Below, piece by piece: positions 2,129 to 60,000 of a DNA stretch of 64,000 nt. Source of the DNA: Nereocystis luetkeana (Eukaryota; Sar; Phaeophyceae; Laminariales; Laminariaceae); the NCBI GenBank assembly GCA_031213475.1, contig JARUPZ010000008.1:10049076-10113075 (forward strand). Reading direction: 5' to 3'. How positions within the stretch are numbered: the first letter of the stretch is position 1; each line of letters begins with the position of its first letter. A program made the position numbers and the translations under genes. A model generated the notes under the pieces. The model had not been told where the DNA came from. It searched no databases and worked only from the letters and a program-made list of their open reading frames with translations.

Positions 2129-2137
2129 TACCAGGTA
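2129..2137. repeat. TACCTGGTA motif (reverse orientation)
   Basis: One of five perfect copies of this nine-base near-palindrome in unit 1 (others at 3115, 6075, 6229 and 7356). It stands beside an AT-rich stretch flanked by a second, shorter CACCAGGTAC copy at 2105-2114. Confidence 0.6.
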
Positions 2138-2456: not shown

Positions 2457-2741
2457 AAGAGAAAATCAGAAAACCTAGGGGCGTTGTTTCCCGAGGTGGC
2501 GTGGTATCATTCGCCTCCTACATACGGTACTCGTTTCTCATAAGCTCGCCATCCGACAAAGTGTAGCCGCATGAGCTGTAACGTCGCGCATATGCACCCC
2601 CTGAGATAGAGAACACCTAGGCAAATGACAAAACAGGGAACCCTGGTACGATAGACGGCACACGTGCTCCGATTCCGTGTTATCTACATATTGATGGCAA
2701 CATATTACAGCAATCACAAACCAAGATTTCCAGGTCGGGAA

Positions 2742-2930
2742 TCACGAAGAAAGGAAAGCGTCGCGAACGAACATCGCCACGACTGGTTTCGGCGGATCGG
2801 TTTGAAGTTTCAGGGAGAGGGTGAAGGAAATCGCGAGGAGGAAACGTCTACAAAACTCTTCAACCTGTTGAAAAAGTCCGAATGGGCAGGGGGGGGGGGG
2901 ATGGGGGGATAAAACAATGGGGACACCCAA
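2742..2930 (-). CDS. Short ORF next to a G run, strand uncertain
   Basis: On the minus strand an ORF covering FQQVEEFCRRFLLAISFT and ending DAFLSS is open in all five units (14705-14893, 27064-27249, 39447-39632, 51825-52010). The opposite strand has an 82-codon ORF (2664-2912) that is broken by a one-base deletion in units 4 and 5, which favours the minus strand if either is coding. The upstream end runs into a G homopolymer (2889-2900) of different length in each unit, so only the last ~45 codons could be genuine. No family is recognised. Confidence 0.25.
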   Translation of the reverse strand: MGVPIVLSPHPPPPCPFGLFQQVEEFCRRFLLAISFTLSLKLQTDPPKPVVAMFVRDAFLSS

Positions 2931-3081
2931 GCCTCACGAGGTGCTCGGCCTTCCTAAAAAGAAGAGTTGGGAATAACTGAGACACAGGGTTCTGTTGAGG
3001 GAGAAATATCGAAACACCGTGACCAGTGTCCAGAGGGGGCCCGACAATTGTCTATGTGTGCTTGCAAACTTTGGCGAATAT

Positions 3082-3188
3082 AGGCTACACTGAAATTATT
3101 GCGCAATACAGCCATACCTGGTATCCGTTTCGGGGGATTTCAGAAGAACGGGAATAATAGAGGCTACACTGAAACTATTGCGCAATAC
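3082..3188 (+). repeat. Pair of 28-base direct repeats
   Basis: AGGCTACACTGAAATTATTG followed by CGCAATAC occurs at 3082-3109 and again, with one base changed, at 3161-3188. The two flank about 50 bases that contain a TACCTGGTA motif. The pair is found in all units, for example from 15045 and from 27405. Confidence 0.85.
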
Positions 3189-3488
3189 ATTTTCTCAAAT
3201 ATGAAACCAGGCCTATTGTGCCAGTATTACCTCGGTTTCACATGACAGGGCAGAGCCGGTACTGGTGCACCTTGTTGTGGTGAGTATGAAGCCACCACGA
3301 TTCGGCCTCCGCTGAAAATAGTAGCTTTAGCGGCAGAACCATGTCATGACACAGCCGGGGTGGAATAAATGCCCTTTACGGGTGGTGCCTTAATATCCGA
3401 GCTCAGCACATCAGGGGCTCAACGTCTCTATTCACCCGAAACATGGGCTCCGAACAACGTTTTGTTCGCGCGCAGCCCGGCGAGCAGC

Positions 3489-3494
3489 TATAAA
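3489..3494 (+). promoter_or_regulatory. TATA-like box upstream of a small ORF
   Basis: TATAAA lies 42 bases before the ATG at 3531. In units 4 and 5 it reads TATATA (40195 and 52573 regions). The spacing would put a start site about 10 bases before the ATG. This is a positional guess only. Confidence 0.25.
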
Positions 3495-3530
3495 CACTTC
3501 GGTGTACTGTGCAAGCTGCACTTCTGAAAT

Positions 3531-3716
3531 ATGTGCAGAGATATTATTGCTGATGATGGTGAAATAATCGCAGTAGCCGGTATACTATTAGGGGCTCACT
3601 TGAGCAGCTCGACCGATAAGAAACTATTGCCTCGGAATGAAAATAGTGGTACCGCTACCGTGGCATTGCTATTGATAGGGGGATACTGCTGTGGTAGCGG
3701 CGTGGATATAGAGTAG
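3531..3716 (+). CDS. Small 61-codon ORF with two hydrophobic segments
   Basis: The ATG-started ORF is intact, with the same length, in all five units (15494-15679, 27855-28040, 40237-40422, 52615-52800). It has a short acidic start (DIIADDGE), a hydrophobic stretch (IIAVAGILLGAHL), a polar middle and a second hydrophobic stretch (VALLLIGGYCCGSG). First codon positions are purine-rich as in real genes. Differences between units that I found are amino-acid changing (D to N and S to G in unit 2, R to P in unit 3), so there is no sign of constraint. A TATA-like box precedes it. No family is recognised; a chance ORF cannot be excluded. Confidence 0.3.
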   Translation: MCRDIIADDGEIIAVAGILLGAHLSSSTDKKLLPRNENSGTATVALLLIGGYCCGSGVDIE

Positions 3717-4003
3717 TTTGGGGTACATAGAGGATGGTCGCCTGGTACCAACAGCTCTCAATATCCGTCCTTCGGATGTTATTGTTTGGTGGAAAACACA
3801 GCACCCACAGGCAAACCGGAGAGTCATACGTGGATGAACTTTTTTTTTCAACAAAGAAGAGAAACAACAACCTTGCCATACACTAAAAAGAGCTGAAAAC
3901 TAAAGTATTTTTCCTGTGCCTCCTCGCCTTCCCCGATAGATTGGACCCGATTATGTTTTCTTCTCAATTATAGTTATGATTTTGATTTTTTCTTTTTACT
4001 TCT

Positions 4004-4189
4004 TTATGCATCTTGTTCTGCACAGGTTATCTTGTATGTACGCCTGAGTGCGTTGAACAATAGCTGCACACGATATCCCACCCTATTTTCAAGTAGCTTG
4101 GTGCAGTTCATTCGGTGGGGTTGACGGGCAATCAGCATACATGCGTGACCATGTTCATCAGTACATACGTCTCGTTTCATTTTTTTCAC
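4004..4189 (-). CDS. 61-codon minus ORF, protein sequence unchanged in all units
   Basis: An ATG-started ORF encodes a small basic protein that starts MKKMKRDVCTDEHGHACM and ends KITCAEQDA. It is intact in all five units (15967-16152, 28328-28513, 40710-40895, 53088-53273) with no amino-acid difference that I could find. The two base changes I located inside it are both silent: a lysine codon AAG to AAA in unit 3, and a threonine codon ACC to ACT in units 4 and 5. Four cysteines and several histidines are present but no known motif. It lies about 150 bases from the end of the 186-codon minus ORF on the same strand, so it could be its downstream exon or a separate small gene. Confidence 0.4.
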   Translation of the reverse strand: MKKMKRDVCTDEHGHACMLIARQPHRMNCTKLLENRVGYRVQLLFNALRRTYKITCAEQDA

Positions 4190-4336
4190 GTTTATTTTCT
4201 TGATTTGGCCCGTCTGCTATTGGGGCGGGACCTGCTCTGAACCGTGCGTCCTGCATGTAGCTAATGCTACGCAACGTTTCATGCACAAGTGATGGACGTT
4301 TGTATGCAGTCTGTTTCTCGTTAATTGATACCAGTA

Positions 4337-4897
4337 TTATTTGGCGGCGTGCTGCACATACAGTGCTTGGGTGTCAATTACGACAAGTACCCCCCCCCTC
4401 CCCCTATTATGTATACAGTAGGTTGGGTTGGCGTCGGTTGGCAGTAGTAACACTATTGCATGAAACATGACGCCCACAACGTGAGCTAGAATACCAGGGC
4501 ACCTTAATTGTTTCATTTTCTGTCGGTCGGACACAGCTGGCGATCGAGGTTGGAATATGTGTCCGGGGTGGAAAATTATTGTTCCTGACGAGGGGAATGC
4601 TCGTATCGCGTAGTGTTCATGGCGAGTCAAACACGTGGTAGTTACATACCTGTGGTACCCCCATAGCTGCCTCTGGAAAAGACCGCGCCGGAAAACGGAG
4701 CAAGTCATTAACGCTGGCATCCATATGCAAGTCCGCCTCACCAGCGGTCCTGGGTAAGATGCAACCCATTCTTCATGGGACTCGCTGAACACCTTACGAC
4801 GCCTCGCGCTCGGTGCAAGCAATCTGTGCCTGGTCGGTGAAACCTCGACGCACTCCGTCCCGGAATTAATTGTAAAGATGCGAGGGTCTATGGTCAT
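4337..4897 (-). CDS. 186-codon minus ORF, best coding candidate of the unit (unit 1)
   Basis: I chose the ATG shared by all units (MTIDPRIF start), because a two-base deletion in units 4 and 5 removes the longer upstream reading. Base differences between units inside it are mostly silent: an arginine codon CGC/CGT and a glutamine codon CAG/CAA. One H to Y change is seen, and two length changes are multiples of three (an extra codon in unit 1 and an extra glycine codon in units 4 and 5). The protein is basic, rich in R, H and W, with no signal peptide and no recognised domain. Residues ~20-45 match the 2283-2456 fragment. A GTGAGG donor at 4736-4741 and a TTTTCCAG acceptor ending at 4673 sit inside, so it could be spliced. 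Confidence 0.45.
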   Translation of the reverse strand: MTIDPRIFTINSGTECVEVSPTRHRLLAPSARRRKVFSESHEEWVASYPGPLVRRTCIWMPALMTCSVFRRGLFQRQLWGYHRYVTTTCLTRHEHYAIRAFPSSGTIIFHPGHIFQPRSPAVSDRQKMKQLRCPGILAHVVGVMFHAIVLLLPTDANPTYCIHNRGRGGVLVVIDTQALYVQHAAK

Positions 4898-5407
4898 ACG
4901 ACTACGGCCATGCATGATATCGAGTACACCCCTCCCCACCTCCTTGCGCAATACGGAAATTGTATGTTGTAGAACGCCATTATTGGGGACACCCAATTAA
5001 GAGGTTGTCGACACCTTGTAAGGTTTATTGCATACATACATCGTTCAACGTCTACAAAAGGAGTCTGACACGCCCGCACCGTGCAAAGAGGGACGACCCA
5101 GCCACCTGTACTAGGTCGACAAACGAGGCTTGATAAAACGTGAGTCTACAGTGCCCTTCTTCATCAAAGAGGTTGCTACTGTGTAGTAGCCGCTGTGATA
5201 TCTATCATCGGGAAACACACACCCACACCCGGTAGCAGAGGCTCGAGCCACTACCGACGACGTCGATTGGTAGTGCCTCGCGGGAAGGATTATTTGTGTA
5301 GAATATTCTTGAGACTCTAGATTTGCCGAATCGTCTATGCCCCGTAATAGGTACGAGTGCCAGGTATGAATATGCGATTTAGGGATTTCACTCTGCAGCA
5401 ATGACGA

Positions 5408-5998
5408 ATGAAACATTCTCCATGGGGCAACGGTCGGATACGACATATCTACACAATGCGGTGGAATTCTCGGTCAAACATAACATCGGCCACCACGGCA
5501 AAATCAGTCATCTATTTTTCACGATATGATATACGCTGTACACCATGGTCGATGCTCGATGTTCAAGATATCATTCGATGTGCCCTGCACCCACATCAAA
5601 GAAGCGCAGCGCTACCAAGACAAGCCAGCACGCCTGTCTGTGTGCTCCAGCCGTCGACCGCGTCACCCCTACCAAGAAACAGCTGCCACCACAACGCCAG
5701 ACAGCCACCACACCGATTCCAGTGCTGTAGTCACAGAGGAATGCTCTGCGCACATAATACCAACAACCTCGACACCATTCCTGCATCCGGTATCTGGTAT
5801 TTGGTATCTCGAATCGCGCCCGAGCCTCTCCACAGCACAACATCACCAGCATCACCAACCAGCAGCAACGGCAAGGCGGAGACTGGTGCACGACACGATC
5901 GCTGCTGTTATGCTCGCCGGGCCATCATCTGCATCCGAGGGGGACATCAATCAGTGAACACAAAAATAGCCGGACGAAACCGGACATACCTGAGGTAG
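5408..5998 (+). CDS. Overlapping ORFs of 196 and 143 codons, coding frame uncertain
   Basis: Two plus-strand frames are open across this block in all five units: 196 codons (5408-5998) and 143 codons (5526-5957). A third ORF is open on the minus strand (5571-5891). Units 4 and 5 have an in-frame three-base insertion (42346 region). Differences such as CTA/CTG and AGA/CGA are silent in the 196-codon frame, but others nearby change residues in both frames, so selection does not pick one. Copies of the 196-codon frame: 17369-17959, 29740-30330, 42120-42713, 54498-55091. The products are rich in H, P, S and T with no recognised motif. This may be non-coding sequence with long open frames by chance. 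Confidence 0.25.
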   Translation: MKHSPWGNGRIRHIYTMRWNSRSNITSATTAKSVIYFSRYDIRCTPWSMLDVQDIIRCALHPHQRSAALPRQASTPVCVLQPSTASPLPRNSCHHNARQPPHRFQCCSHRGMLCAHNTNNLDTIPASGIWYLVSRIAPEPLHSTTSPASPTSSNGKAETGARHDRCCYARRAIICIRGGHQSVNTKIAGRNRTYLR

Positions 5999-6074
5999 AG
6001 TATGCTGACAAATGTTATCTGCGAATTCAGACCGGCTGACATCGGGGTCGTCAGACATCGATACTGCTATATCA

Positions 6075-6083
6075 TACCTGGTA
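6075..6083 (+). repeat. TACCTGGTA motif, present in units 1 and 2 only
   Basis: Units 1 and 2 (18036-18044) read CATACCTGGTACCAT. Units 3, 4 and 5 read CATACCAT at the same place (30406 region). The difference is exactly TA versus TA-CCTGG-TA. Confidence 0.9.
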
Positions 6084-6228
6084 CCATATTACGTTCCAGC
6101 ACATACCCTGTATTCATAGTACGACACAGCGATACCGGCTTACAATCAGGAAGCTGGACGTTTCCGTATTTATTTATTCGGGAAAGGGTGCCCTTTCTAG
6201 GCTGTACTCTGCAACACAGCAACTTCAG

Positions 6229-6237
6229 TACCTGGTA
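6229..6237 (+). repeat. TACCTGGTA motif, second polymorphic site
   Basis: Units 1 and 2 (18190-18198) read CAGTACCTGGTATCAT. Units 3, 4 and 5 read CAGTATCAT (30553 region). Again a lone TA corresponds to TA-CCTGG-TA, the same seven-base difference as at 6075. Confidence 0.9.
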
Positions 6238-6500
6238 TCATTTTCGCGTTGTAAGTCCCAGCCTGCCTTTCTTAGTGTTCGCACTGTTACATGACTCACC
6301 ACGCTACTACCCTTCGAGGTGGATAGGCGGCCTGTACTGGGTGGTGTGAGGGATACCGGCAGCCTGTAGGATGGGTACACGGCCTTTGGTATAACTCTGT
6401 CCGTGAATGTAAGAAACGCGTATTCAGTCCACGAACAATCAGACGAACCTTATATTTCCGACATAGATAGGGGTTCACACGGTCAATGACCGTTTCGCAT

Positions 6501-6542
6501 GTTTTTGGATTTTGGATCTTGGGTTTTGGGATCTTGGGTTTT
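6501..6542 (+). repeat. Short GT-rich repeat (GGATCTTGGGTTTT type)
   Basis: About three imperfect copies of a 14-16 base TTTTGG-ATCTTGGG element stand in tandem. The same block occurs in every unit (from about 18458, 30815, 43198 and 55576). It resembles telomere repeats only in base composition. Confidence 0.7.
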
Positions 6543-6740
6543 CGAATCCTCATCCAGCTTGACCAATGAGTGGAAAATACGTGTCATACTGATGTTTCGG
6601 GATGTTTCATTGACCAACACAATCCCGAGGGTTTTCATTGACCCGCTTCCGTTCGTTTTTTCTTGCGCACCCTCCAGCCCTGCCGAAGTGCACAAAGCCC
6701 CTGCGCACTCAGCACCAGATACAACAACAGAAGCACCATC

Positions 6741-7175
6741 TCACCGGAGTGTCATCACCGTCACCCATCGCGCCCGCCGACGACCCGCCAGCAAATCTTT
6801 CTCCTGTACCTGTGTCAAGCGAGCTCCACCCACTGCCTGCAAGAGGCTCAAGTATACAGCGCGCTCTTCCCAATCTCGAGCTCTCTGCACCAACGGCAGT
6901 GTTCTTGGGTTCTGCAAATTCCTCCACACCAGACAGCGGGAGCCACAGTCTTCTCCGGTGCTTTTGAGGGGATAGACGGCCCACTGCAACGGCGTAGAAC
7001 CGCGGCCTTTGCACCGCTGGGTATCCATAGCAGTTTCCTTCACAGTGACACCACCGGTCTTCTCCATCATCCGTGCTTTGTGCAGCATCATCGGCAGACA
7101 TCCATACGCACAGCGCTCGTCGCAGAAGCAAGGAACACCACCAATCTCGACAGCGGTGTTTCCTCGAAAACTCAA
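6741..7175 (-). CDS. Open frames on both strands; minus ORF with an ankyrin-like snippet
   Basis: The minus-strand ORF is open in all units (18753-19133, 31110-31490, 43493-43873, 55871-56251). It includes the residues GRGSTPLQWAVYPLKS, reminiscent of the TPLHxA core of an ankyrin repeat, but the remaining positions do not make a convincing repeat. A plus-strand ORF of 257 codons covers the same DNA in units 2-5 (18456-19229, 30813-31586, 43196-43969, 55574-56347) and is broken in unit 1 by a one-base deletion near 6800. Changes between units include silent ones in the minus frame (TTG/CTG, TGT/TGC) but also several replacements. Strand and function stay open. Confidence 0.25.
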   Translation of the reverse strand: MSFRGNTAVEIGGVPCFCDERCAYGCLPMMLHKARMMEKTGGVTVKETAMDTQRCKGRGSTPLQWAVYPLKSTGEDCGSRCLVWRNLQNPRTLPLVQRARDWEERAVYLSLLQAVGGARLTQVQEKDLLAGRRRARWVTVMTLR

Positions 7176-7355
7176 AGGCGTTATTCACAGCATCGACCAG
7201 CACAACACCAACAGCGTCTTCACGGCTTGTTCTTCACCCGGTCTTTCTACGGCGAGCACCGACCGGTCTGATAGTGCTCAGGTGCTGCATTGCTCTACCC
7301 CCAGCAACCTACTACTGTCTTCTGCAGCCCAGCACTCTTGGCAGCTGTAGCCTTC

Positions 7356-7364
7356 TACCTGGTA
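7356..7364 (+). repeat. TACCTGGTA motif at a possible splice acceptor
   Basis: The motif lies three bases before the CAG that would be the acceptor of the exon-like block at 7368. It is present in all five units. Confidence 0.6.
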
Positions 7365-7367
7365 CAG

Positions 7368-7528
7368 TGCAACGGTGTTGGCGGAAGATGACTTTGATCG
7401 GGGCGTTGTCCGCGTGGTCCTTGTGGAAGTTCGAGATGGAGCTTTCGTACAGCACGATGGTGAAAGAGACCTGGTGGCTCGATCTGGACTTCTTGATAGA
7501 GCTTAAGTACTACCTCAAGGGCCGAGCG
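7368..7528 (+). CDS. Plus-strand exon-like block, unrecognised
   Basis: The block follows a CTGGTACAG acceptor-like site and ends at GCG before a GTGAGT donor. From the ATG at 7388 it encodes 47 residues rich in W, L, K and E (for example LSAWSLWKFEMELSYS and ETWWLDLDFLIELKYYLK). Nearly every codon ends in G or C, the clearest coding signature in the unit. The frame also stays open past the donor to a stop at 7633; a 63-base intron (7529-7591) would keep the same frame. Silent changes between units include CTT/CTC, but F to S occurs in unit 4. Copies: 19326-19486, 31683-31843, 44066-44226, 56444-56604. It may belong to one gene with the exon at 8398. Confidence 0.4.
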
Positions 7529-8397
7529 GTGAGTACACGAACAGCAGGCCTGGAGATCGAGCCACGTGTTGTTCAATCTATTGCGCGCCAGGTTTTTCAA
7601 CCTTCGTGTTTGTTGCGCTGTGCTGGAAGCTGAGATGCCAGTGCCAGGAGGAACTGGTTCAAGGTCCGTTTTACGAATACTAATCTGTCGTTGAATGTAA
7701 GGGCCAGAGGCAAGCGCAATCCGCTACCCCGTAGGTTAGATTGGCTGTGAGTTGTGAGCGAGACGTAGGAGGTCGTGAAGTGATCCAGAATGTGTTTTGT
7801 GCCCAACATAGCTGCCTTTACTTATTACTTCAGTATTGTTCGGCACAACCCGAACAAGCGTCGAACAACACCAATACACAAAGCTGGGTTTGGCGGCCAC
7901 CCCACACCTCAGAGAGTAGTTGTTCCGCTACGTCTATCAAACGCGCCTACTGTATGGGCGAAGGCGGCCGCTATTAGCTCACCCATCAAGCAGTCGCAGG
8001 CTCGCACATATTAAAATTAGTCTGCGTATACATCCTGTGTACGTTACAGTATTCCGTTGCTGTTCACTTCTATGCAACTGATAGCGATCTGAGGTGCACC
8101 GGTAGTCACTTGTAGGTACTGTAGAGTATTATTGTACACGTCACCAGCCGACTGATGAATCCTGTGGGGTGATTGTCGCCGGCCGAGCACTTCCATACTG
8201 CAAATCAGTGCTGTCCCTTTAAATTCCAGGCGTTGGACACTCACTGAATAAAACATACAATTTCATACGCAGGATCTGCCTGGGTGTTACCACTGAAGAG
8301 TAAATCCTGATAGCAAGCCATACTTGCGTGCCTGCGGCGTGCTCCACTACTCAAACCTTCGTTCGTCTCATGTTTAATCGTTCGACCGTCTCACGCA

Positions 8398-8668
8398 ATG
8401 GGCAACCAGAGTGAAGCGTTGGGGGCCATCCAGCAGGATGTGAAGCTGATCCTGGATTGGTTGGAGGGTGCCTTGGAGGCGGGGCAGGAGATCGCGGTGA
8501 GACTGACACCTGGCATTTACAATAGCACGTGCCCCCCCCCCTCCTCCAGCCTCTGCACAATCAGCAGCCACCACTGCTAAACAGCGATGCTACATACGAG
8601 AGGGTGGTTCGACCCCCCTTGACTAACTTCCCCTCACACAGGAACTGCTTACAGTAGGAGAGTATTGA
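8398..8668 (+). CDS. Candidate two-exon small gene, unit 1
   Basis: Exon one (8398-8496) starts at ATG and encodes 33 residues with an amphipathic pattern (QQDVKLILDWLEGALEAGQE). Its codons are biased to G or C at the third position, and it ends at GCG before a GTGAGA donor. A CTCACACAG acceptor at 8641 leads in phase 0 to exon two (8642-8668), nine codons including the stop, ending in residues EY here. Joined length is 41 residues. The intron (145 bases) holds a C run of variable length and a B-box-like GGTTCGACCCC. Copies: 20328-20596, 32715-32983, 45070-45345, 57449-57718. The protein is not recognised. It could be the 3' end of a longer gene with the exon at 7368. Confidence 0.4.
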
Positions 8669-8916
8669 GGCCCAAAGAAGTCTTTTTTGCACCCCACCCG
8701 ACCGGTCTCCTATTCTACCATACCGTTGGGTAGGGCCAACAGAGGTGCTCATGTGCTCAAACAGGTCGGTCTCCCATCTTTTTATCGTCTGTGCTGGGAG
8801 GACTCTGGGAACAGTATAGGAGCTCCTTCCCTTAAAGCGAGATACGTTCGTCGTGATCTGTGTTCGTTTCCGGGAGTGATCTTACATCACATCGCCATTG
8901 CTTCAAAACAAATCAG

Positions 8917-9027
8917 GAGTGTTTCATCGCTGAGATCCGAGAGATTTTGGGACTTGTCAAGGGGTGCCAGCCGGGCGGCGAGGTGGAAATGGTCGATATG
9001 GGCGTGGAACACTACCCAACCGAGTAA
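8917..9027 (+). CDS. Terminal-exon-like block of 36 codons
   Basis: The block follows an AAATCAG acceptor-like site and encodes residues such as CFIAEIREILGLVKGCQPGG and VEMVDMGVEHYPTE before TAA. G-starting codons and G/C third positions dominate. A GGC/GGA difference between units is silent in this frame. A different plus frame (136 codons, 8687-9097) is also open in all five units, but its differences change residues. It could join upstream exons in the 136-codon frame through a short, weak intron. Copies: 20845-20955, 33232-33342, 45594-45704, 57967-58077. No family is recognised. Confidence 0.35.
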   Translation, partial: ECFIAEIREILGLVKGCQPGGEVEMVDMGVEHYPTE

Positions 9028-9394
9028 AGCTACTCTATCCCCGGGATGGGAAGAAGCCGGTGAGAAATGCAAACAAAAAACACTGCCTGTAGGTTGACGC
9101 ATTTGATCGTTTGTTTTTGTCGGCTGGGGGGAAACATCGCCCTCTTTTTGGTAGGTCTTTTTTTATATGTCCTTGAAAGTTCTTATTGCATACAATTGTA
9201 CTCCTCTTCCCTCAAACGAAACCAATGATGAACTGCACAACATCAATGGGTGTCTAGTTGTCCGATTATCAGGAAATGTATACAAGCCGGTATGTTCGGC
9301 AGTACGGGGTCGGTCGCGCGGGAAATGAACGCTTTGTAGCTACCGCTGTTGAGCCATCCCACCACCCCCTCCTCGTACAGAATATACTGCTTAC

Positions 9395-9568
9395 TTGACC
9401 TCTTCTGAGACACAGGGAATACGGGTTACAAAAGGAGACCTGCTTTATTGTTAACCTGGAGAACATATTTAGGGTGTTACCGCCTGGCAGTACCATGTTG
9501 TACGCACGTCGTGCTATTCTGTCGTTGTAGCTCGGAGCTTCAATAATGTTCATCATCCTCCAACTCAT
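9395..9568 (-). CDS. Minus-strand exon-like block with GTAAGC donor
   Basis: On the minus strand 58 codons are open from an ATG to a consensus-like AA-GTAAGC donor (9389-9394). The peptide includes IIEAPSY, DRIARRAYNMVLPGGNTLN and LTIKQVSF. The frame continues past the donor to 9269, so splicing is not forced. Copies: 21322-21495, 33712-33885, 46080-46253. Differences between units are replacements (K/N, V/A, C/S/I), so constraint is not evident. In the diverged flank (58371-60000) the matching region has lost this frame. No family is recognised. Confidence 0.3.
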
Positions 9569-9577
9569 GCGAGAGAT

Positions 9578-9880
9578 TTGTGCACGACCAATGGTATGTA
9601 CACTCGCCTGTCTCGTTTCGTCGTTCCCCTGCTCTCAAACCCCACGGAATTTAATAGAAGCACCCGTGGTTTTTGTTTTTTGTTTGTTTGGGTTTGTTCA
9701 TCTGTCAAGGGGGACGTGAAGGCTGGCACCATCAAGACCTCCCAGCCGAGAAAAAAAAAGTGCTCAGATGCAACTGAGCGTCTACTGTGCTCTGTTTCAG
9801 CAAGGCTGGTTGGCACGGTGGGCTGTTCTAGCTTGGCTTCTCACGGGGCAGTTCGGCGGACTACCCTCCTACATTCGTAG
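9578..9880 (+). CDS. 100-codon plus ORF, unrecognised
   Basis: The ORF is open in units 1, 3 and 4 (33865-34197, 46233-46565) and broken in unit 2 by one extra A in an A run near 21686. A lysine-rich middle (KGDVKAGTIKTSQPRKKK) has a same-length but changed counterpart in the diverged flank (58786-58830), which ends soon after. It could be an exon fragment; the A run makes it easily disrupted. Confidence 0.22.
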   Translation: MCTTNGMYTRLSRFVVPLLSNPTEFNRSTRGFCFLFVWVCSSVKGDVKAGTIKTSQPRKKKCSDATERLLCSVSARLVGTVGCSSLASHGAVRRTTLLHS

Positions 9881-16857: not shown

Positions 16858-19800
16858 ACGACTACGGCCATGCATGATATCGAGTACACCCCTCCCCACC
16901 TCCTTGCGCAATACGGAAATTGTATGTTGTAGAACGCCATTATTAGGGACACCCAATTGAGAGGTTGTCGACACCTTGTAAGGTTTATTGCATACATACA
17001 TCGTTCAACGTCTACAAAAGGAGTCTGACACGCCCGCACCGTGCACAGAGGGATGACCCAGCCACCTGTACTAGGTCGACAAACGAGGCTTGATAAAACG
17101 TGAGTCTACAGTGCCCTTCTTCATCAAAGAGGTTGCTACTGTGTAGTAGCCGCTGTGATATCTATCATCAGGAAACACACACACCCACGGCGGTAGCAGA
17201 GGCTCGAGCCACTACCGACGACGTCGATTGGTAGTGCCTCGCAGGAAGGATTATTTGTGTAGAATATTCTTGAGACTCTAGATTTGCCGAATCGTCTATG
17301 CCCCGTAATAGGTACGAGTGCCAGGTATGAATATGCGATTTAGGGATTTCACTCTGCAGCAATGACGAATGAAACATTCTCCATGGGGCAACGGTCGGAT
17401 ACGACATATCTACACAATGCGGTGGAATTCTCGGTCAAACATAACATCGGCCACCACGGCAAAATCAGTCATCTATTTTTCACGATATGATATACGCTGT
17501 ACACCATGGTCGATGCTCGATGTTCAAGATATCATTCGATGTGCCCTGCACCCACATCAAAGAAGCGCAGCGCTGCCACGACAAGCCAGCACGCCTGTCT
17601 GTGTGCTCCAGCCGTCGACCGCGTCACCCCTACCAAGAAACAGCTGCCACCACAACGCCAGACAGCCACCACACCGATTCCAGTGCTGTAGTCACAGAGG
17701 AATGCTCTGCGCACAGAATACCAACAACCTCGACACCATTCCTGCATCCGGTATCTGGTATTTGGTATCTCGAATCGCGCCCGAGCCTCTCCACAGCACA
17801 ACATCACCAGCATCACCAACCAGCAGCAACGGCAAGGCGGAGACTGGTGCACGACATGATCGCTGCTGTTATGCTCGCCGGGCCATCATCTGCATCCGAG
17901 GGGGACATCAATCAGTGAACACAAAAATAGCCGGACGAAACCGGACATACCTGAGGTAGAGTATGCTGACAAATGTTATCTGCGAATTCAGACCGGCTGA
18001 CATCGGGGTCGTCAGACATCGATACTGCTATATCATACCTGGTACCATATTACGTTCCAGCACATACCCTGTATTCATAGTACGACACAGCGATACCGGC
18101 TTACAATCAGGAAGCTGGACGTTTCCGTATTTATTTATTCGGGAAAGGGTGCCCTTTCTAGGCTGTACTCTGCAACACAGCAACTTCAGTACCTGGTATC
18201 ATTTTCGCGTTGTAAGTCCCAGCCTGCCTTTCTTAGTGTTCGCACTGTTACATGACTCACCACGCTACTACCCTTCGAGGTGGATAGGCGGCCTGTACTG
18301 GGTGGTGTGAGGGATACCGGCAGCCTGTAGGATGGGTACACGGCCTTTGGTATAACTCTGTCCGTGAATGTAAGAAACGCGTATTCAGTCCACGAACAAT
18401 CAGACGAACCTTATATTTCCGACAGAGGGGTTCACACGGTCAATGACCGTTTCGCATGTTTTTGGATTTTGGATCTTGGGTTTTGGGATCTTGGGTTTTC
18501 GAATCCTCATCCAGCTTGACCAATGAGTGGAAAATACGTATCATACTGATGGTTCGGGATGTTTCATTGACCAACACAATCCCGAGTTTTTTCATTGACC
18601 CGCTTCCGTTCGTTTTTTCTTGCGCACCCTCCAGCCCTGCCGAAGTGCCCAAAGCCCCTGCGTACTTTGCACCAGATACAACAACAGAAGCACCATCTCA
18701 CCGGAGTGTCATCACCGTCACCCATCGCGCCCGCCGACGACCCGCCTGCAAACTATTTCTCCTGTACCTGTGTCAAGCGACCGCCACCCACTGCCTGCAA
18801 GACGCTCAAGCATACAGCGCGCTCTTCCCAATCTCGAGCTTTCTGCACCAACGGCAGTGTTCTTGGGTTCTGCAAATTCCTCCACACCAGACAGCGGGAG
18901 CCACAGTCTTCTCCGGTGCTTTTGAAGGGATAGACGGTCCACTGCAGCGGCGTAGAACCGCGGCCTTTGCACCGCTGGGTATCCACAGCAGTTTCCTTCA
19001 CAGTGACACCACCGGTCTTCTCCATCATCCGTGCTTTGTGCAGCATCATCGGCAGGCATCCATACGCATAGCGCTCGTCGCAGAAGCAAGGAACACCACC
19101 AATCTCGACAGCGGTGTTTCCTCGAAAACTCAAAGGCGTTATTCACAGCATCGACCAGCACAACACCAACAGCGTCTTCACGGCTTGTTCTTCACCCGGT
19201 CTTTCTACGGCGAGCACCGACCGGTCTGATAGTGCTCAGGTGCTGCATTGCTCTACCCCCAGCAACCTACTACTGTCTTCTGCAGCCCAGCACTCTTGGC
19301 AGCTGTAGCCGTCTACCTGGTACAGTGCAACGGTGTTGGCGGAAGATGACTTTGATCGGGGCGTTGTCCGCGTGGTCCTTGTGGAAGTTCGAGATGGAGC
19401 TCTCGTACAGCACGATGGTGAAAGAGACCTGGTGGCTCGATCTGGACTTCTTGATAGAGCTTAAGTACTACCTCAAGGGCCGAGCGGTGAGTACACGAAC
19501 AGCAGGCCTGGAGATCGAGCAACATGTTGTTCAATCTATTGCGCGCCAGGTTTTTCAACCTTCGTGTTTGTTGCGCTGTGCTGGAAGCTGAGATGCCAGT
19601 GCCAGGAGGAACTGGTTCAAGGTCCGTTTTACGAATACTAATCTGTCGTTGAATGTAAGGGCCAGAGGCAAGCGCAATCCGCTACCCCGTAGGTTGGATT
19701 GGTTGTGAGTTGTGAGCGAGACGTAGGAGGTCGTGAAGTGATCCAGAATGTGTTTTGTGCCCAACATAGCTGCCTTTACTTATTACTTCAGTATTGTTCG

Positions 19801-29222: not shown

Positions 29223-32200
29223 ACGACTACGGCCATGCATGATATCGAGTACACCCCTCCCCACCTCCTTGCGCAATACGGAAATTGTATGTTGTAGAAC
29301 GCCATTATTAGGGACACCCAATTGAGAGGTTGTCGACACCTTGTAAGGTTTATTGCATACATACATCGTTCAACGTCTACAAAAGGAGTCTGACACGCCC
29401 GCACCGTGCAAAGAGGGATGACCCAGCCACCTGTACTAGGTCGACAAACGAGGCTTGATAAAACGTGAGTCTACAGTGCCCTTCTTCATCAAAGAGGTTG
29501 CTACTGTGTAGTAGCCGCTGTGATATCTATCATCGGGAAACACACACCCACACCCGGTAGCAGAGGCTCGAGCCACTACCGACGACGTCGATTGGTAGTG
29601 CCTCGCGGGAAGGATTATTTGTGTAGAATATTCTTGAGACTCTAGATTAAATATTTGCCGAATCGTCTATGCCCCGTAATAGGTACGAGTGCCAGGTATG
29701 AATATGCGATTTAGGGATTTCACTCTGCAGAAATGACGAATGAAACATTCTCCATGGGGCAACGGTCGGATACGACATATCTACACAATGCGGTGGAATT
29801 CTCGGTCAAACATAACATCGGCCACCACGGCAAAATCAGTCATCTATTTTTCACGATATGATATACGCTGTACACCATGGTCGATGCTCGATGTTCAAGA
29901 TATCATTCGATGTGCCCTGCACCCACATCAAAGAAGCGCAGCGCTGCCACGACAAGCCAGCACGCCTGTCTGTGTGCTCCAGCCGTCGACCGCGTCACCC
30001 CTACCAAGAAACAGCTGCCACCACAACGCCAGACAGCCACCACACCGATTCCAGTGCTGTAGTCACAGAGGAATGCTCTGCGCACAGAATACCAACAACC
30101 TCGACACCATTCCTGCATCCGGTATCTGGTATTTGGTATCTCGAATCGCGCCCGAGCCTCTCCACAGCACAACATCACCAGCATCACCAACCAGCAGCAA
30201 CGGCAAGGCGGAGACTGGTGCACGACACGATCGCTGCTGTTATGCTCGCCGGGCCATCATCTGCATCCGAGGGGGACATCAATCAGTGAACACAAAAATA
30301 GCCGGACGAAACCGGACATACCTGAGGTAGAGTATGCTGACAAATGTTATCTGCGAATTCAGACCGGCTGACATCGGGGTCGTCAGACATCGATACTGCT
30401 ATATCATACCATATTACGTTCCAGCACATACCCTGTATTCATAGTGCGACACAGCGATACCGGCTTACAATCAGGAAGCTGGACGATTTCGTATTTATTT
30501 ATTCGGGAAAGGGTGCCCTTTCTAGGCTGTACTCTGCAACACAACAACTTCAGTATCATTTTCGCGTCGTAAGTCCCAGCCTGTTTTTCTTAGTGTTCGC
30601 ACTGTTACATGACTCACCATGCTACGACCCTTTGAGGTGGATAGGCGGTCTGTACTGGGTGGTGTGAGGGATACCGGCAGCCTGTAGGATGGGTGCACGG
30701 CCTTTGGTATAACTCTGTCCGTGAATGTAAGAAACGCGTATTCAGTCCACGAACAATCAGGCGAACCTTATATTTCCGACGTAGGGGTTCACACGGTCAA
30801 TGACCGTTTCGCATGTTTTTGGATTTTGGATCTTGGGTTTTGGGATCTTGGGTTTTCGAATCCTCATCCAGCTTGACCAATGAATGGAAAATACGTGTCA
30901 TACTGATGTTTCGGGATGTTTCATTGACCAACACAATCCCGAATTTTTTTATTGACCCGCTTCCGTTCGTTTTTTCTTGCGCACCCTCCAGCCCTGCCGA
31001 ACTGCCCAAAGCCCCTGCGTACTCAGCACCAGATACAACAACAGAAGCACCATCTCACCGGAGTGTCATCACCGTCACCCATCGCGCCCGCCGACGACCC
31101 GCCAGCAAACTATTTCTCCTGTACCTGTGTCAAGCGAGCTCCACCCACTGCCTGCAAGACGCTCAAGCATACAGCGCGCTCTTCCCAATCTCGAGCTCTC
31201 TGCACCAACGGCAGTGTTCTTGGGTTCTGCAAATTCCTCCACACCAGACAGCGGGAGCCACAGTCTTCTCCGGTGCTTTTGAAGGGATAGACGGTCCACT
31301 GCAGCGGCGTAGAACCGCGGCCTTTGCACCGCTGGGTATCCATAGCAGTTTCCTTCACAGTGACACCACCGGTCTTCTCCATCATCCGTGCTTTGTGCAG
31401 CATCATCGGCAGGCATCCATACGCATAGCGCTCGTCGCAGAAGCAAGGAACCCCACCAATCTCGACAGCGGTGTTTCCTCGAAAACTCAAAGGCGTTATT
31501 CACAGCATCGACCAGCACAACACCAACAGCGTCTTCACGGCTTGTTCTTCACCCGGTCTTTCTACGGCGAGCACCGAACGGTCTGATAGTGCTCAGGTGC
31601 TGCATTGCTCTACCCCCAGCAACCTACTACTGTCTTCTGCAGCCCAGCACTCTTGGCAGCTGTAGCCTTCTACCTGGTACAGTGCAACGGTGTTGGCGGA
31701 AGATGACTTTGATCGGGGCGTTGTCCGCGTGGTCCTTGTGGAAGTTCGAGATGGAGCTCTCGTACAGCACGATGGTGAAAGAGACCTGGTGGCTCGATCT
31801 GGACTTCTTGATAGAGCTTAAGTACTACCTCAAGGGCCGAGCGGTGAGCACACGGACAGCAGGCCTGGATATCGAGCAACATGTTGTTCAATCTATTGCG
31901 CGCCAGGTTTTTCAACCTTCGTGTTTGTTGCGCTGTGCTGGAAGCTGAGATGCCAGTGCCAGGAGGAACTGGTTCAAGGTCCGTTTTACGAATACTAATC
32001 TGTCGTTGAATGTAAGGGCCAGAGGCAAGCGCAATCCGCTACCCCGTAGGTTGGATTGGTTGTGAGTTGTGAGCGAGACGTAGGAGGTCGTGAAGTGATC
32101 CAGAATGTGTTTTGTGCCCAACATAGCTGCCTTTGCTATGATACTTCAGTCTTTTTCGGCACTACCCGAACAAGCGTCGAACAACACCAATACACAAAGC

Positions 32201-41603: not shown

Positions 41604-44600
41604 ACGACTCGGCCATGCATGATATCGAGTACACCCCTCCCCACCTCCTTGCGCAATACGGAAATTGTATGTTGTAGAACGCCATTATTAGGGACACCCA
41701 ATAATTGAGAGGTTGTCGACACCTTGTAAGTTTTATTGCATACATACATCGTTCAACGTCTACAAAAGGAGTCTGACACGCCCGCACCGTGCAAAGAGGG
41801 ATGACCCAGCCACCTGTACTAGGTCGACAAACGAGGCTTGATAAAACGTGAGTCTACAGTGCCCTTCTTCATCAAAGAGGTTGCTACTGTGTAGTAGCCG
41901 CTGTGATATCTATCATCGGGAAACACACACCCACACCCGGTAGCAGAGGCTCGAGCCACTACCGACGACGTCGATTGGTAGTGCCTCGCAGGAAGGATTA
42001 TTTGTGTAGAATATTCTTGAGACTCTAGATTTATTTGCCGAATCGTCTATGCCCCGTAATAGGTACGAGTGCCAGGTATGAATATGCGATTTAGGGATTT
42101 CACTCTGCAGCAATGACGAATGAAACATTCTCCATGGGGCAACGGTCGGATACGACCTATCTACAAAATGCGGTGGAATTCTCGGTCAAACATAACATCG
42201 GCCACCACGGCAAAATCAGTCATCTATTTTTCACGATATGATATACGCTGTACACCATGGTCGACGCTCGATTTTCAAGATAACATTCGATGTGCCCTGC
42301 ACCCACATCAAAGAAGCGCAGCACTACCACGACAAGCCAGCACGCCGCCTGTCTGTGTGCTCCAGCCGTCGACCGCGTCACCCCTACCAAGAAACAGCTG
42401 CCACCACAACGCCAGACAACCACCACACCGATTCCAGTGCTGTAGTCACAAAGGAATGCTCTACGCACAGAATACCAACAACCTCGACACCATTCCTGCA
42501 TCCGGTATCTGGTATTTGGTATCTCGAATCGCGCCCGAGCCTCTCCACAGCACAACATCACCAGCATCACCAGCCAGCAGCAACGGCAAGGCGGAGACTG
42601 GTGCACGACACGATCGCTGCTGTTATGCTCGCCGGGCCATCATCTGCATCCGAGGGGGACATCAATCAGTGAACACAAAAATAGTCGGACGAAACCGGAC
42701 ATACCTGAGGTAGAGTATGCTGACAAATGTTATCTGCGAATTCAGACCGGCTGACATCGGGGTCGTCAGACATCGATACTGCTATATCATACCATATTAC
42801 GTTCCAGCACATACCCTGTATTCATAGTGCGACACAGCGATACCAGCTTACAATCAGGAAGCTGGACGTTTTCGTATTTATTTATTCGGGAAAGGGTGCC
42901 CTTTCTAGGCTGTACTCTGCAACACAGCAACTTCAGTATCATTTTCGCGTCGTAAGTCCCAGCCTGTTTTTCTTAGTGTTCGCACTGTTACATGACTCAC
43001 CATGCTACTACCCTTCGAGGAGGATAGGCGGCCTGTACTGGGTGGTGTGAGGGATACCGGCAGCCTGTAGGATGGGTACACGGCCTTTGGTATAACTTTG
43101 CCCGTGAATGTAAGAAACGCGTATTCAGTCCACGAACAATCAGGCGAACCTTCTATTTCCGACATAGGGGTTCATACCGTCAATGACCGTTTCGCATGTT
43201 TTTGGATTTTGGATCTTGGGTTTTGGGATCTTGGGTTTTCGAATCCTCATCCAGCTTGACCAATGAGTGGAAAACACGTATCATACTGATGGTTCGGGAT
43301 GTTTCATTGACCAACACAATCCCGAGGGTTTTCATTGACCCGCTTCCGTTCGTTTTTTCTTGCGCACCCTCCAGCCCTGCCGAAGTGCACAAAGCCCCTG
43401 CGTACTCAGCACCAGATACAACAACAGAAGCACCATCTCACCGGAGTGTCATCACCGTCACCCATCGCGCCCGCCGACGACCCGCCTGCAAACTATTTCT
43501 CCTGTACCTGTGTCAAGCGAGCTCCACCCACTGCCTGCAAGACGCTCAAGCATACAGCGCGCTCTTCCCAATCTCGAGCTCTCTGCACCAACGGCAGTGT
43601 TCTTGGGTTCTGCAAATTCCTCCACACCAGACAGCGGGAGCCACAGTCTTCTCCGGTGCTTTTGAAGGGATAGACGGTCCACTGCAGCGGCGTAGAACCG
43701 CGGCCTTTGCACCGCTGGGTATCCACAGCAGTTTCCTTCACAGTGACACCACCGGTCTTCTCCATCATCCGTGCTTTGTGCAGCATCATCGGCAGGCATC
43801 CATACGCATAGCGCTCGTCGCAGAAGCAAGGAACACCACCAATCTCGACAGCGGTGTTTCCTCGAAAACTCAAAGGCGTTATTCACAGCATCGACCAGCA
43901 CAACACCAACAGCGTCTTCACCGCTTGTTCTTCACCCGGTCTTTCTACGGCGAGCACCGACCGGTCTGATAGTGCTCAGGTGCTGCATTGCTCTACCCCC
44001 AGCAACCTACTACTGTCTTCTGCAGCCCAGCACTCTTGGCAGCTGTAGCCGTCTACCTGGTACAGTGCAACGGTGTTGGCGGAAGATGACTTTGATCGGG
44101 GCGTTGTCCGCGTGGTCCTTGTGGAAGTTCGAGATGGAGCTCTCGTACAGCACGATGGTGAAAGAGACCTGGTGGCTCGATCTGGACTCCTTGATAGAGC
44201 TTAAGTACTACCTCAAGGGCCGAGCGGTGAGTACACGAACAGCAGGCCTGGATATCGAGCAACATGTTGTTCAATCTATTGCGCGCCAGGTTTTTCAACC
44301 TTCGTGTTTGTTGCGCTGTGCTGGAAGCTGAGATGCCAGTGCCAGGAGGAACTGGTTCAAGGTCCGTTTTACGAATACTAATCTGTCGTTGAATGTAAGG
44401 GCCAGAGGCAAGCGCAATCCGCTACCCCGTAGGTTGGATTGGTTGTGAGTTGTGAGCGAGACGTAGGAGGTCGTGAAGTGATCAAGAATGTGTTTTGTGC
44501 CCAACATAGCTGCTTTTGCTTATTACTTCAGTAGTTTTCGGCACAACAACCCGAACAAGCGTCGAACAACACCAATACACAAAGCTGGGTTTGGCGGCCA

Positions 44601-53981: not shown

Positions 53982-56900
53982 ACGACTCGGCCATGCATGA
54001 TATCGAGTACACCCCTCCCCACCTCCTTGCGCAATACGGAAATTGTATGTTGTAGAACGCCATTATTAGGGACACCCAATAATTGAGAGGTTGTCGACAC
54101 CTTGTAAGTTTTATTGCATACATACATCGTTCAACGTCTACAAAAGGAGTCTGACACGCCCGCACCGTGCAAAGAGGGATGACCCAGCCACCTGTACTAG
54201 GTCGACAAACGAGGCTTGATAAAACGTGAGTCTACAGTGCCCTTCTTCATCAAAGAGGTTGCTACTGTGTAGTAGCCGCTGTGATATCTATCATCGGGAA
54301 ACACACACCCACACCCGGTAGCAGAGGCTCGAGCCACTACCGACGACGTCGATTGGTAGTGCCTCGCAGGAAGGATTATTTGTGTAGAATATTCTTGAGA
54401 CTCTAGATTTATTTGCCGAATCGTCTATGCCCCGTAATAGGTACGAGTGCCAGGTATGAATATGCGATTTAGGGATTTCACTCTGCAGCAATGACGAATG
54501 AAACATTCTCCATGGGGCAACGGTCGGATACGACCTATCTACAAAATGCGGTGGAATTCTCGGTCAAACATAACATCGGCCACCACGGCAAAATCAGTCA
54601 TCTATTTTTCACGGTATGATATACGCTGTACACCATGGTCGACGCTCGATTTTCAAGATAACATTCGATGTGCCCTGCACCCACATCAAAGAAGCGCAGC
54701 ACTACCACGACAAGCCAGCACGCCGCCTGTCTGTGTGCTCCAGCCGTCGACCGCGTCACCCCTACCAAGAAACAGCTGCCACCACAACGCCAGACAACCA
54801 CCACACCGATTCCAGTGCTGTAGTCACAAAGGAATGCTCTACGCACAGAATACCAACAACCTCGACACCATTCCTGCATCCGGTATCTGGTATTTGGTAT
54901 CTCGAATCGCGCCCGAGCCTCTCCACAGCACAACATCACCAGCATCACCAGCCAGCAGCAACGGCAAGGCGGAGACTGGTGCACGACACGATCGCTGCTG
55001 TTATGCTCGCCGGGCCATCATCTGCATCCGAGGGGGACATCAATCAGTGAACACAAAAATAGTCGGACGAAACCGGACATACCTGAGGTAGAGTATGCTG
55101 ACAAATGTTATCTGCGAATTCAGACCGGCTGACATCGGGGTCGTCAGACATCGATACTGCTATATCATACCATATTACGTTCCAGCACATACCCTGTATT
55201 CATAGTGCGACACAGCGATACCAGCTTACAATCAGGAAGCTGGACGTTTTCGTATTTATTTATTCGGGAAAGGGTGCCCTTTCTAGGCTGTACTCTGCAA
55301 CACAGCAACTTCAGTATCATTTTCGCGTCGTAAGTCCCAGCCTGTTTTTCTTAGTGTTCGCACTGTTACATGACTCACCATGCTACTACCCTTCGAGGAG
55401 GATAGGCGGCCTGTACTGGGTGGTGTGAGGGATACCGGCAGCCTGTAGGATGGGTACACGGCCTTTGGTATAACTTTGCCCGTGAATGTAAGAAACGCGT
55501 ATTCAGTCCACGAACAATCAGGCGAACCTTCTATTTCCGACATAGGGGTTCATACCGTCAATGACCGTTTCGCATGTTTTTGGATTTTGGATCTTGGGTT
55601 TTGGGATCTTGGGTTTTCGAATCCTCATCCAGCTTGACCAATGAGTGGAAAACACGTATCATACTGATGGTTCGGGATGTTTCATTGACCAACACAATCC
55701 CGAGGGTTTTCATTGACCCGCTTCCGTTCGTTTTTTCTTGCGCACCCTCCAGCCCTGCCGAAGTGCACAAAGCCCCTGCGTACTCAGCACCAGATACAAC
55801 AACAGAAGCACCATCTCACCGGAGTGTCATCACCGTCACCCATCGCGCCCGCCGACGACCCGCCTGCAAACTATTTCTCCTGTACCTGTGTCAAGCGAGC
55901 TCCACCCACTGCCTGCAAGACGCTCAAGCATACAGCGCGCTCTTCCCAATCTCGAGCTCTCTGCACCAACGGCAGTGTTCTTGGGTTCTGCAAATTCCTC
56001 CACACCAGACAGCGGGAGCCACAGTCTTCTCCGGTGCTTTTGAAGGGATAGACGGTCCACTGCAGCGGCGTAGAACCGCGGCCTTTGCACCGCTGGGTAT
56101 CCACAGCAGTTTCCTTCACAGTGACACCACCGGTCTTCTCCATCATCCGTGCTTTGTGCAGCATCATCGGCAGGCATCCATACGCATAGCGCTCGTCGCA
56201 GAAGCAAGGAACACCACCAATCTCGACAGCGGTGTTTCCTCGAAAACTCAAAGGCGTTATTCACAGCATCGACCAGCACAACACCAACAGCGTCTTCACC
56301 GCTTGTTCTTCACCCGGTCTTTCTACGGCGAGCACCGAACGGTCTGATAGTGCTCAGGTGCTGCATTGCTCTACCCCCAGCAACCTACTACTGTCTTCTG
56401 CAGCCCAGCACTCTTGGCAGCTGTAGCCGTCTACCTGGTACAGTGCAACGGTGTTGGCGGAAGATGACTTTGATCGGGGCGTTGTCCGCGTGGTCCTTGT
56501 GGAAGTTCGAGATGGAGCTCTCGTACAGCACGATGGTGAAAGAGACCTGGTGGCTCGATCTGGACTTCTTGATAGAGCTTAAGTACTACCTCAAGGGCCG
56601 AGCGGTGAGTACACGAACAGCAGGCCTGGAGATCGAGCAACATGTTTTTCAATCTATTGCGCGCCAGGTTTTTCATCCTTCGTGTTTGTTGCGCTGTGCT
56701 GGAAGCTGAGATGCCAGTGCCAGGAGGAACTGGTTCAAGGTCCGTTTTACGAATACTAATCTGTCGTTGAATGTAAGGGCCAGAGGCAAGCGCAATCCGC
56801 TACCCCGTAGGTTGGATTGGTTGTGAGTTGTGAGCGAGACGTAGGAGGTCGTGAAGTGATCCAGAATGTGTTTTGTGCCCAACATAGCTGCCTTTACTTA

Positions 56901-58370: not shown

Positions 58371-60000
58371 AAAAGAAGCGCCTTGTTTGTTGGATAGTCT
58401 CTACCGCAGAGCCACCCGGCAACCTCCACCTCGAGAAAATATTTTTGCTTTCTCGAATCCTTTCGATACCTACCACAGTGCGCTACAGCACTGTAGGTGT
58501 TGCCGCCTTAAAAATAAGGCGTACGGTGTTTTCAACGTGCAGATCACGTTATCAGCAATGGTGCCTAGCAGTACGATTAGTGACACGTTGTCCGCGTATA
58601 CGTAACGCTACTCCTTCCTCGTGGCTCGGACGTTAAAATTATCGGCCCTCAACCCAGGTGGGAGGTTTGTGCAACGGATACCATGTACAACCCGTCTTTC
58701 TTGTTGCGTCACTCACCCGATCTGAAGCCCCTTCGGTGTTAATTCAAGCACTCGTGCTCTGTTTTGTTTGCGTTTGTTTTCCCCGTCAAGGCTGGCATGA
58801 AGGCTGCCGTTACCAAGCTCTCCCAGCCTGGGGAAGTGCCCAGAGACGGCTGAGCACCTACTCTTTTCCAATAACGCCAGTAGTAGTGGGGTCTGGCGGG
58901 AAGTTCTAGCTTGGTGCTATCGCACCGCGGATTGTTCTCGTCTGACTGGCCATGCTACTAACAACTACCTGGTAGAGTGAAGAGGATGGGTGGGTTTGCA
59001 CCTTTTGACAGAGGAACGAATGTTTTACGTTTGTCGTGTTATTGTTTGGCGATGCGTACGTGTGTCTCACTCTACCCCTGACATTGGCGCGGTTCGGTGC
59101 CAGTTTTCCTGTAGGATGTAGGCAGTATTATTGCGCGAGTGTCGGGTGTGTCGTGTACAGCTGAAAGAGGTGTAGTCAGCTCGGTGCACGCGCGAGATTA
59201 TTTGTCGAACCAGTTGACTTTCCTAGTCCCGTTCCCCTACCTTGCGACCGCTCCCAATCGCCTGTCACATCCTGGATCGGTCGCCCACGGCAAACGACAC
59301 AGTGTTGTTGACAGACGTGCGACATTAAACTATTCTCGTCGACTCAGCTGGGGGTGTGGGAAGTGGGTTCGCTGTTCTGCAGTAGTATATGGTGCATCGG
59401 ACCAAAAACATACTGTTTGCTGCGTTATCAATAGCAGTGCACGGATATAATATATATATATGTGTATATGTCTAAGTATGTATATTCTATATAGTGCCAA
59501 ATCTTGTCGACACTCTTTTTTCCCCGCGGTTGCCAGGCATGCCACCCTTGCTGGCGACCTGGTAAACGTGTCGTGCAGTGTCGAAGTTTGCGTGAACTTT
59601 CTTTACGCATGCGCTTCACGCTACAGTCTGTGTGGCATGCCTCACGATAGTACAACGGGGCGAATAGAAGCAAAAGCCTGGTTGTGCTTGGTATTCACTC
59701 GGTGGGAGGTTGGGTTGCGGTCGAGTTGGTAACGTGTAGATAAGAATGCGATGCACCTCTTATCGCCCCTCGTGTAAATATCGCTGCCCCTGTTGCGTAA
59801 GCCGCCGTCTTCGTGGAATTGCAGCGGTGTGTCTGTTCTCGCAATAGGTCAAAGCTGCGATGCACGAGTACGTATGCCGTGACCGCTTAGGACTCGGGGG
59901 TATCATTAGAAGTAGCAGTACTGAAGCAATATACCGGTATATATAATGTTAATACTATGCGTTCGCCCATGTTTCTTCTCCGGGAGCCGCACGCTGTGTT
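58371..60000 (+). repeat. Diverged ancestral continuation of the unit
   Basis: Weak but collinear similarity to unit positions 9320-10920 is visible by eye. Shared landmarks in the same order include the GTAGCTCGGAGCTTCAA-like stretch (58623), the GATTTGTGCACGACCA-like stretch (58667), GTGAAGGCTGGC with CTCCCAGCC (58798-58830), GCGATGCACCTC (59748) and TTCTCCGGGA (59985). Identity is far lower than between units, with many indels, and none of the candidate exons stays open. This looks like an older copy at the array margin that escaped homogenisation. No gene is supported in it. Confidence 0.75.
59440..59470. repeat. AT dinucleotide microsatellite
   Basis: A short TA-rich tract (ATATAATATATATATATGTG) in the diverged flank. 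No function is suggested. Confidence 0.7.

Follow-up and report, generated by a model that had tools for sequence, protein, structure and literature searches.

The nine-base word TACCTGGTA, in which a core CC(A/T)GG lies between two TA dinucleotides, is scattered through the genome of the brown alga Nereocystis luetkeana in about a hundred times the number expected from a control word and, where comparable, it appeared at a former bare TA, a gain of seven (or twice seven) bases that is seen at loci unrelated to a tandem array and, together with these, is the supported direction in the array as well. Probably, TACC(A/T)GGTA is what a cut-and-paste DNA transposon that inserts into TA, with duplication of the TA, leaves behind on excision.

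A nine-base word throughout the genome

The window, that is, the whole 64-kb stretch of DNA analysed here (C8:10049076-10113075, in an assembly of 465,085,209 bp and 1,987 contigs), consists of five tandem units of ~12.38 kb each and a flank homologous to, but diverged from, the end of the unit. The first-pass annotation had placed the word at 2129 (minus strand), 3115, 6075, 6229, 7356 and 58966, and exact matching recovered it at all six positions (Table 1). Over both strands of the window there are 20 exact matches, compared with a mean of 0.46 and a maximum of 3 in dinucleotide shuffles. Unit 1 and the flank, which together make up 18 kb of non-redundant sequence, hold 6 copies against 0.34 expected from a third-order Markov model, and none of the 75 TA-N5-TA words in the same 18 kb was seen more than twice, TACCTGGTA excepted. 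The genome-wide excess that the annotation had proposed to look for is indeed present: there are 182,395 copies (91,155 and 91,240 on the two strands), roughly one per 2.5 kb of the 465-Mb genome, as against 1,744 (883 and 861) for the reversed word used as control, an excess of ~100-fold.

Fourteen places picked by position (140 kb) contained 41 copies. A 196-kb sample contained 63, a figure inflated by six sources that were found via the motif and by one that is the window itself. Among the nine-base words present in at least 5 of the 21 sampled sources, this was the most over-represented under a third-order Markov model (47 bins vs 1.74, in 19 of the 21 sources), the bin figure being inflated by the 6 sources picked for holding the motif and by the window. 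Ranked by raw counts, CTA-type microsatellites came out on top; one sampled locus (L022) has a long degenerate microsatellite of the CTA/CTC type. The copies are clustered, with 11 of 42 spacings at or below 200 bp (26% vs 6% expected) in a sample that was partly motif-chosen.

Copies that differ from the word by one base are also in excess (38 transitions vs 14.4 expected and 41 transversions vs 24.6), as expected of decay. Two variants of the core were met in the 196 kb: a six-base form, TACCAGGGTA, found 7 times against 0.46 expected, and a four-base form, TACCGGTA, for which the excess is weak (6 vs 2.8). Beyond the nine bases, the 20-base arms of the six window sites have nothing in common (at most 10 of 20 bases agree, with a null mean of 9.8), and a longer shared unit around these six sites was rejected.

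The surroundings of the word point to a preferred target. At 65 distinct sites, compared with genomic TAs (an expectation distorted by CTA microsatellites), A or T is favoured at −7 (58 vs 29.0) and +7 (56 vs 28.5), as are a purine at −6 (48 vs 25.1) and a pyrimidine at +6 (45 vs 27.5), and a purine at −1 (49 vs 31.7) and a pyrimidine at +1 (53 vs 44.7). The preference is largely symmetric around the TA, clearly at ±6, ±7 and −1 and weakly at +1, with an asymmetry at ±2, where, with the word oriented as TACCTGGTA, 28 of the 65 sites have T at −2 and only 18 have A at +2. This pattern suggests an enzyme that would be two-fold symmetric and centred on TA.

Copies of the word also share their ends. 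Two copies lie on a single TA at 15,917 places in the genome, compared with 2 for the control word, in direct and in both inverted arrangements, and some triples occur. By manual count, 40 of the 59 plus-strand places listed were direct pairs, TACCTGGTACCTGGTA; the other 19 were inverted, the two types being uneven (14 and 5). Independent scars would give direct pairs in half of the cases, and slippage may account for the surplus. A rough estimate from uniform use of TA (0.064 per base) gives about 2,200 pairs, several times fewer than observed. The word does not have the head-to-tail arrangement of a microsatellite or tandem repeat, with 15,917 pairs beside 182,395 copies and inverted pairs among them.

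Gain of the word at bare TA

Units 1 and 2 carry TACCTGGTA both at 6075 and at 6229, where units 3-5 have TA, and the flanks align except for single-base differences, so that unit alignment upholds the identical seven-base difference described at these two sites in the first-pass annotation. No other seven-base gap exists in the five-unit alignment; its remaining 35 gaps of less than 400 bases comprise 20 tandem duplications and 15 of other kinds (manual count). The annotation had also called the two sites independent, which holds in that there were two events but not for their inheritance: tract 6075-6443 holds both motif differences together with 7 of the 17 base differences that separate units 1 and 2 from units 3-5, and the two therefore travel as one haplotype.

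Table 1. Positions of the word and of its empty sites in the window
Feature	Position	Strand	Basis or remark
Filled polymorphic site 1, unit 1 (TA CCTGG TA)	6075..6083	+	Exact match, unit alignment, tract haplotypes
Filled polymorphic site 2, unit 1	6229..6237	+	Exact match, unit alignment, tract haplotypes
Filled polymorphic site 1, unit 2	18036..18044	+	Exact match, unit alignment
Filled polymorphic site 2, unit 2	18190..18198	+	Exact match, unit alignment
Empty site 1, unit 3, bare TA	30407..30408	+	Unit alignment
Empty site 2, unit 3, bare TA	30554..30555	+	Unit alignment
Empty site 1, unit 4, bare TA	42790..42791	+	Unit alignment
Empty site 2, unit 4, bare TA	42937..42938	+	Unit alignment
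Empty site 1, unit 5, bare TA	55168..55169	+	Unit alignment
Empty site 2, unit 5, bare TA	55315..55316	+	Unit alignment
TACCTGGTA copy filled in 5/5 units	2129..2137; others 14093, 26451, 38836, 51214	-	Exact match
TACCTGGTA copy filled in 5/5 units	3115..3123; others 15078, 27438, 39821, 52199	+	Exact match
TACCTGGTA copy filled in 5/5 units	7356..7364; others 19314, 31671, 44054, 56432	+	Exact match
TACCTGGTA copy in flank (diverged unit homologue)	58966..58974	+	Exact match
Possible longer variant TACCTGTGGTA	4647..4657	+	L023 paralogue lacks CCTGTG here and reads TAGTA
Possible longer variant TACCTGAGGTA	5987..5997	+	No empty copy seen

The array extends upstream of the window (window 1-58386; G000:C8:10018368-10104574) and has eight copies of tract 6000-6420. 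These eight are all the tract copies found genome-wide, four filled and four empty, in the array order of one empty, four filled and three empty units. Over 6000-6460 the four filled units are identical, with seven private bases in addition to both insertions, and the four empty units represent three haplotypes, 5-11 differences apart. Over 6480-7900, 28 differences separate the two filled pairs; the filled units are not one group outside the tract, which has thus been spread by exchange or conversion. Over each of the stretches compared (4600-5990, 6000-6460 and 6480-7900), unit 1 matches the second upstream unit without a difference, as unit 2 does the first, and a pair of units was thus probably duplicated as a whole. 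Over 4600-5990 the outermost upstream copy aligns poorly. At the site at 7356, an array copy upstream of the window (L013) has TACCTAGTA, a decayed copy rather than an empty site, and alignment of the flank site at 58966 to the units gave no resolvable empty state and hence no polarity. Hairpin-driven deletion at the two polymorphic sites was considered and rejected, folding being no better than in shuffles.

Other features of the units were recorded along the way. A segment of ~1 kb between units 1 and 2 (window 11369-12406) is inverted with respect to the other units, and the end of unit 1 lacks ~407 bp that units 2-4 have (at 23299-23706 in the case of unit 2). Every unit has a 620-bp imperfect foldback (window 968-1587), about 74% self-complementary. 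In window 3077-3189 there is a 34-bp direct duplication with the palindrome TATTGCGCAATA, its copies 79 bp apart and the motif at 3115 between them. Possible short spliced exons can be made out by eye at 7388-7531, 8400-8650 and 8930-9030, with GTGAGT/CACACAG borders; the units that carry them otherwise look non-coding and gave no Pfam match above cut-off.

The array alone could be read in either direction, and it is the addition of a repeat-family comparison that makes gain the supported one. A near-palindromic repeat of ~106 bp, with ends TACGGGGGACCATAGTTA, has many copies in 200 kb (L029:6198-6406, L028:9065-9174, L023:8741-8845, L025 and others). One copy contains the motif (L029:6298), and at the corresponding position of other copies the seven bases are absent from all 12 places aligned (14 alignment rows, reduced to 12 distinct places by the overlap of L005-L007), 11 of which have TA and one AA. 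A partial copy of the repeat (L011:755) has the motif at another position, where 18 places (20 rows) are without it, 17 of them reading TA and the other TG. At a third locus (L009:1501/1508) two overlapping copies, TACCTGGTACCAGGTA, correspond to a bare TA in the sole sampled paralogue (L007). Insertion at TA with duplication of the TA is therefore found at five comparable loci, the two array sites and these three, and the comparison of empty and filled sites suggested in the first-pass annotation, made here within the genome and between paralogues, gave gain at TA at three loci that have no relation to the array. For most of the 95 sites queried, the sample held no motif-free relative; L011:6066 and L020:8885 were dropped because they were not clean empties.

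Candidate origins of the word

An excision scar could form in the following way. An element would insert at TA and duplicate it, and would later leave by staggered cuts, so that a few terminal bases stayed on each flank; end joining would then yield TA-CC-W-GG-TA with the middle A or T undecided, on the plan of the Sleeping Beauty TA-C-W-G-TA, and the net effect would be to convert a bare TA into TACCTGGTA or TACCAGGTA. The joining might involve a five-base overhang that self-pairs except in the middle or, alternatively, a CC overhang joined via one added A. Enzymes of the Tc1/mariner group cut one strand two to three bases inside, and the resulting short overhangs leave, via end joining, a scar between two TAs (PMC7827188, PMC2170065); that of Sleeping Beauty is TAC(A/T)GTA (PMC3432063). 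By analogy, we infer that a larger element, Tc1/mariner-like, came and went at these sites. The observations in support are the genome-wide excess, the gain of seven bases at those few sites for which an empty counterpart was sampled, the largely symmetric target preference, the A/T middle and the reuse of the word's own TA. The middle base is A or T at 182,395 sites and C or G at 10,882 (1,899 for the control), and this form of the core would fit the two ends of a putative element plus an undecided middle. The asymmetry of T at −2 is odd for a scar whose orientation would be set by chance.

The first-pass annotation had offered a TA-transposon footprint or a tiny mobile motif as alternatives, a pair that the excess and the seven-base gain at TA together support. 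The longer element that it had imagined, with CC...GG ends and flanking TA, did not turn up: neither the window nor the ~200 kb sampled of 465 Mb yielded a larger element that combines CCWGG ends with TA duplications, and inverted-repeat scans of the same ~200 kb gave no TACC..GGTA element with convincing boundaries. On both strands of 196 kb, 126 occurrences of TACCWGG continue with TA and 80 with other bases, the latter against 46.1 expected; this surplus of ~34 is covered by copies in which one base of the TA has decayed (~31 over expectation) and by the 7 copies of TACCAGGGTA, so that nothing is left over for a common element with TACCWGG ends. Among 17 distinct larger TA-type insertions between sampled copies, a single one involved TACC or GGTA, and that one was not clean. 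Taken together, this counter-evidence leaves either a parent that is rare, is extinct or ends differently, or a process that needs no parent.

Three candidate parents were rejected: L023:3602-3785, because its homology with L019 continues beyond its end; L018:7744-8981, with ends CCCGT, because the bases preceding the end are also common to the copies; and L011:9445-9974, with ends CCGTAATC, of which the sample holds no second full copy. Six-frame Pfam searches of 1400-11368 and 59000-64000 gave nothing above cut-off (and two weak matches below it), and neither Pfam searches of nine ORFs nor Rfam gave a match. No relative was found in viral contigs with the window DNA and a word from the 968-1587 foldback arms, or with the ATTGCGCAAT repeat and two window proteins; a 19-base match in a Methanolobus contig is at chance level (about 2 expected in that collection).

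The strongest competitor of the excision scar, to which we would still give only a minor chance, is that a tiny unit inserts directly, an enzyme writing CCWGG plus the duplicated TA into TA sites that need never have carried a full element. Aborted integrations could be involved, or a transposase that pastes in end fragments cut very short beforehand. Such a process would suit the very uniform product and the finding of 41 copies in the 140 kb chosen by position, yet no matching larger element in ~200 kb. The TA-sharing pairs, 15,917 against the estimate of ~2,200, look as if existing copies attract new ones, but slippage could raise that count; and the orientation-linked T at −2 would befit a unit with its own direction, whereas the choice of A or T in the middle and the TACCAGGGTA form resemble products of end joining. 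We know of no precedent for the direct writing of so short a unit. That the nine-base word is itself mobile, a dedicated activity writing CCWGG plus the duplicated TA with no prior insertion of a larger element and with existing copies as its favoured targets, is given much the same minor chance, or slightly less.

It is improbable that the word is a functional binding site (for a transcription factor, or a boundary or replication protein) and that the array differences are seven-base deletions between TA repeats. The five unit sites do all have direct repeats of 2-4 bp seven bases apart, of 4 (TACC) and 3 (GTA) at the polymorphic ones, and the copy at 7356 starts 32 bp upstream of a possible exon start. 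On the other hand, the polarity in the ~106-bp repeat family, many copies of which are without the motif, is that of insertion, and two deletions would both have had to fall in the word, for which a probability of ~6e-4 follows from the 137 seven-base places where microhomology is 3 bp or more. Decay with a transition excess also speaks against a binding site, and two copies on one TA are not expected of it. Copies of a regulatory motif would not be expected to arise by discrete insertion, to which the repeat-family members without the seven bases point here.

Templated tandem addition of CCTGGTA from TA, telomerase-like or by slippage, is very unlikely. It would account for the direct TACCTGGTACCTGGTA pairs (40 of the 59 places listed) and for some triples, but both types of inverted pair occur (19 of the 59 places listed), against its being the main process, the two strands are used equally (91,155 and 91,240), and pairs, at 15,917, are rare relative to the 182,395 copies. 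To chance or an assembly artefact we attach practically no credence, as nothing was found in favour and it is opposed by the ~100-fold genome-wide excess and by the 47 bins vs 1.74 in 19 of 21 sources (six of them motif-picked and one the window).

To our knowledge, work on transposon scars has mostly dealt with few of them at a time, in reporter assays or at single genes. If the copies are excision scars, as we think probable, they form an unusually dense record of such scars, and the assembly by itself could reveal the history of insertion and loss, the choice of targets and the joining of ends. If there is no parent element, they would represent a seven-base mobile unit with about 182,000 copies, far smaller than any known to us. 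On either reading the word is a ready marker, as each TA/TACCWGGTA difference between strains would be a discrete event.

Comparison with known systems

In partial coverage of the literature, no report of such a genome-wide scar was found among the matches listed, and no title among the listed matches containing the nine-base word suggests a genome-wide motif. The closest parallel is Sleeping Beauty, a Tc1/mariner element, whose scar likewise has TA on both sides of a short palindromic core with an undecided A/T, both forms being reported (PMC3432063), and whose insertion is also at TA with TA duplication (PMC3432063, PMC7827188). Its core, CWG, is three bases long, whereas CCWGG is five, one more on each side. 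In contrast to Sleeping Beauty, the word described here has 182,395 copies and its putative source element was not found in the ~200 kb sampled.

Plant mariner-like elements and Stowaway MITEs also leave TA-flanked remains of their terminal repeats at empty sites, and their sites are described as undergoing repeated loss and gain; their footprints vary by site (fragments of 1-4 bp), whereas one form dominates here (PMC1925063). ZB, a Tc1/mariner element of zebrafish, resembles the present case in its palindromic target preference around TA, although that preference is ATATATAT rather than A/T seven bases to either side with R before and Y after the TA, and its reported footprints of 0-3 bp are shorter than the five-base core CCWGG (PMC7913693). 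In Ectocarpus, 17 Tc1/mariner families with 11,912 copies, mostly non-autonomous, have been described, in a paper whose main text does not contain the words footprint, MITE or excision; these families show that such elements can be abundant in a brown alga (PMC12477816).
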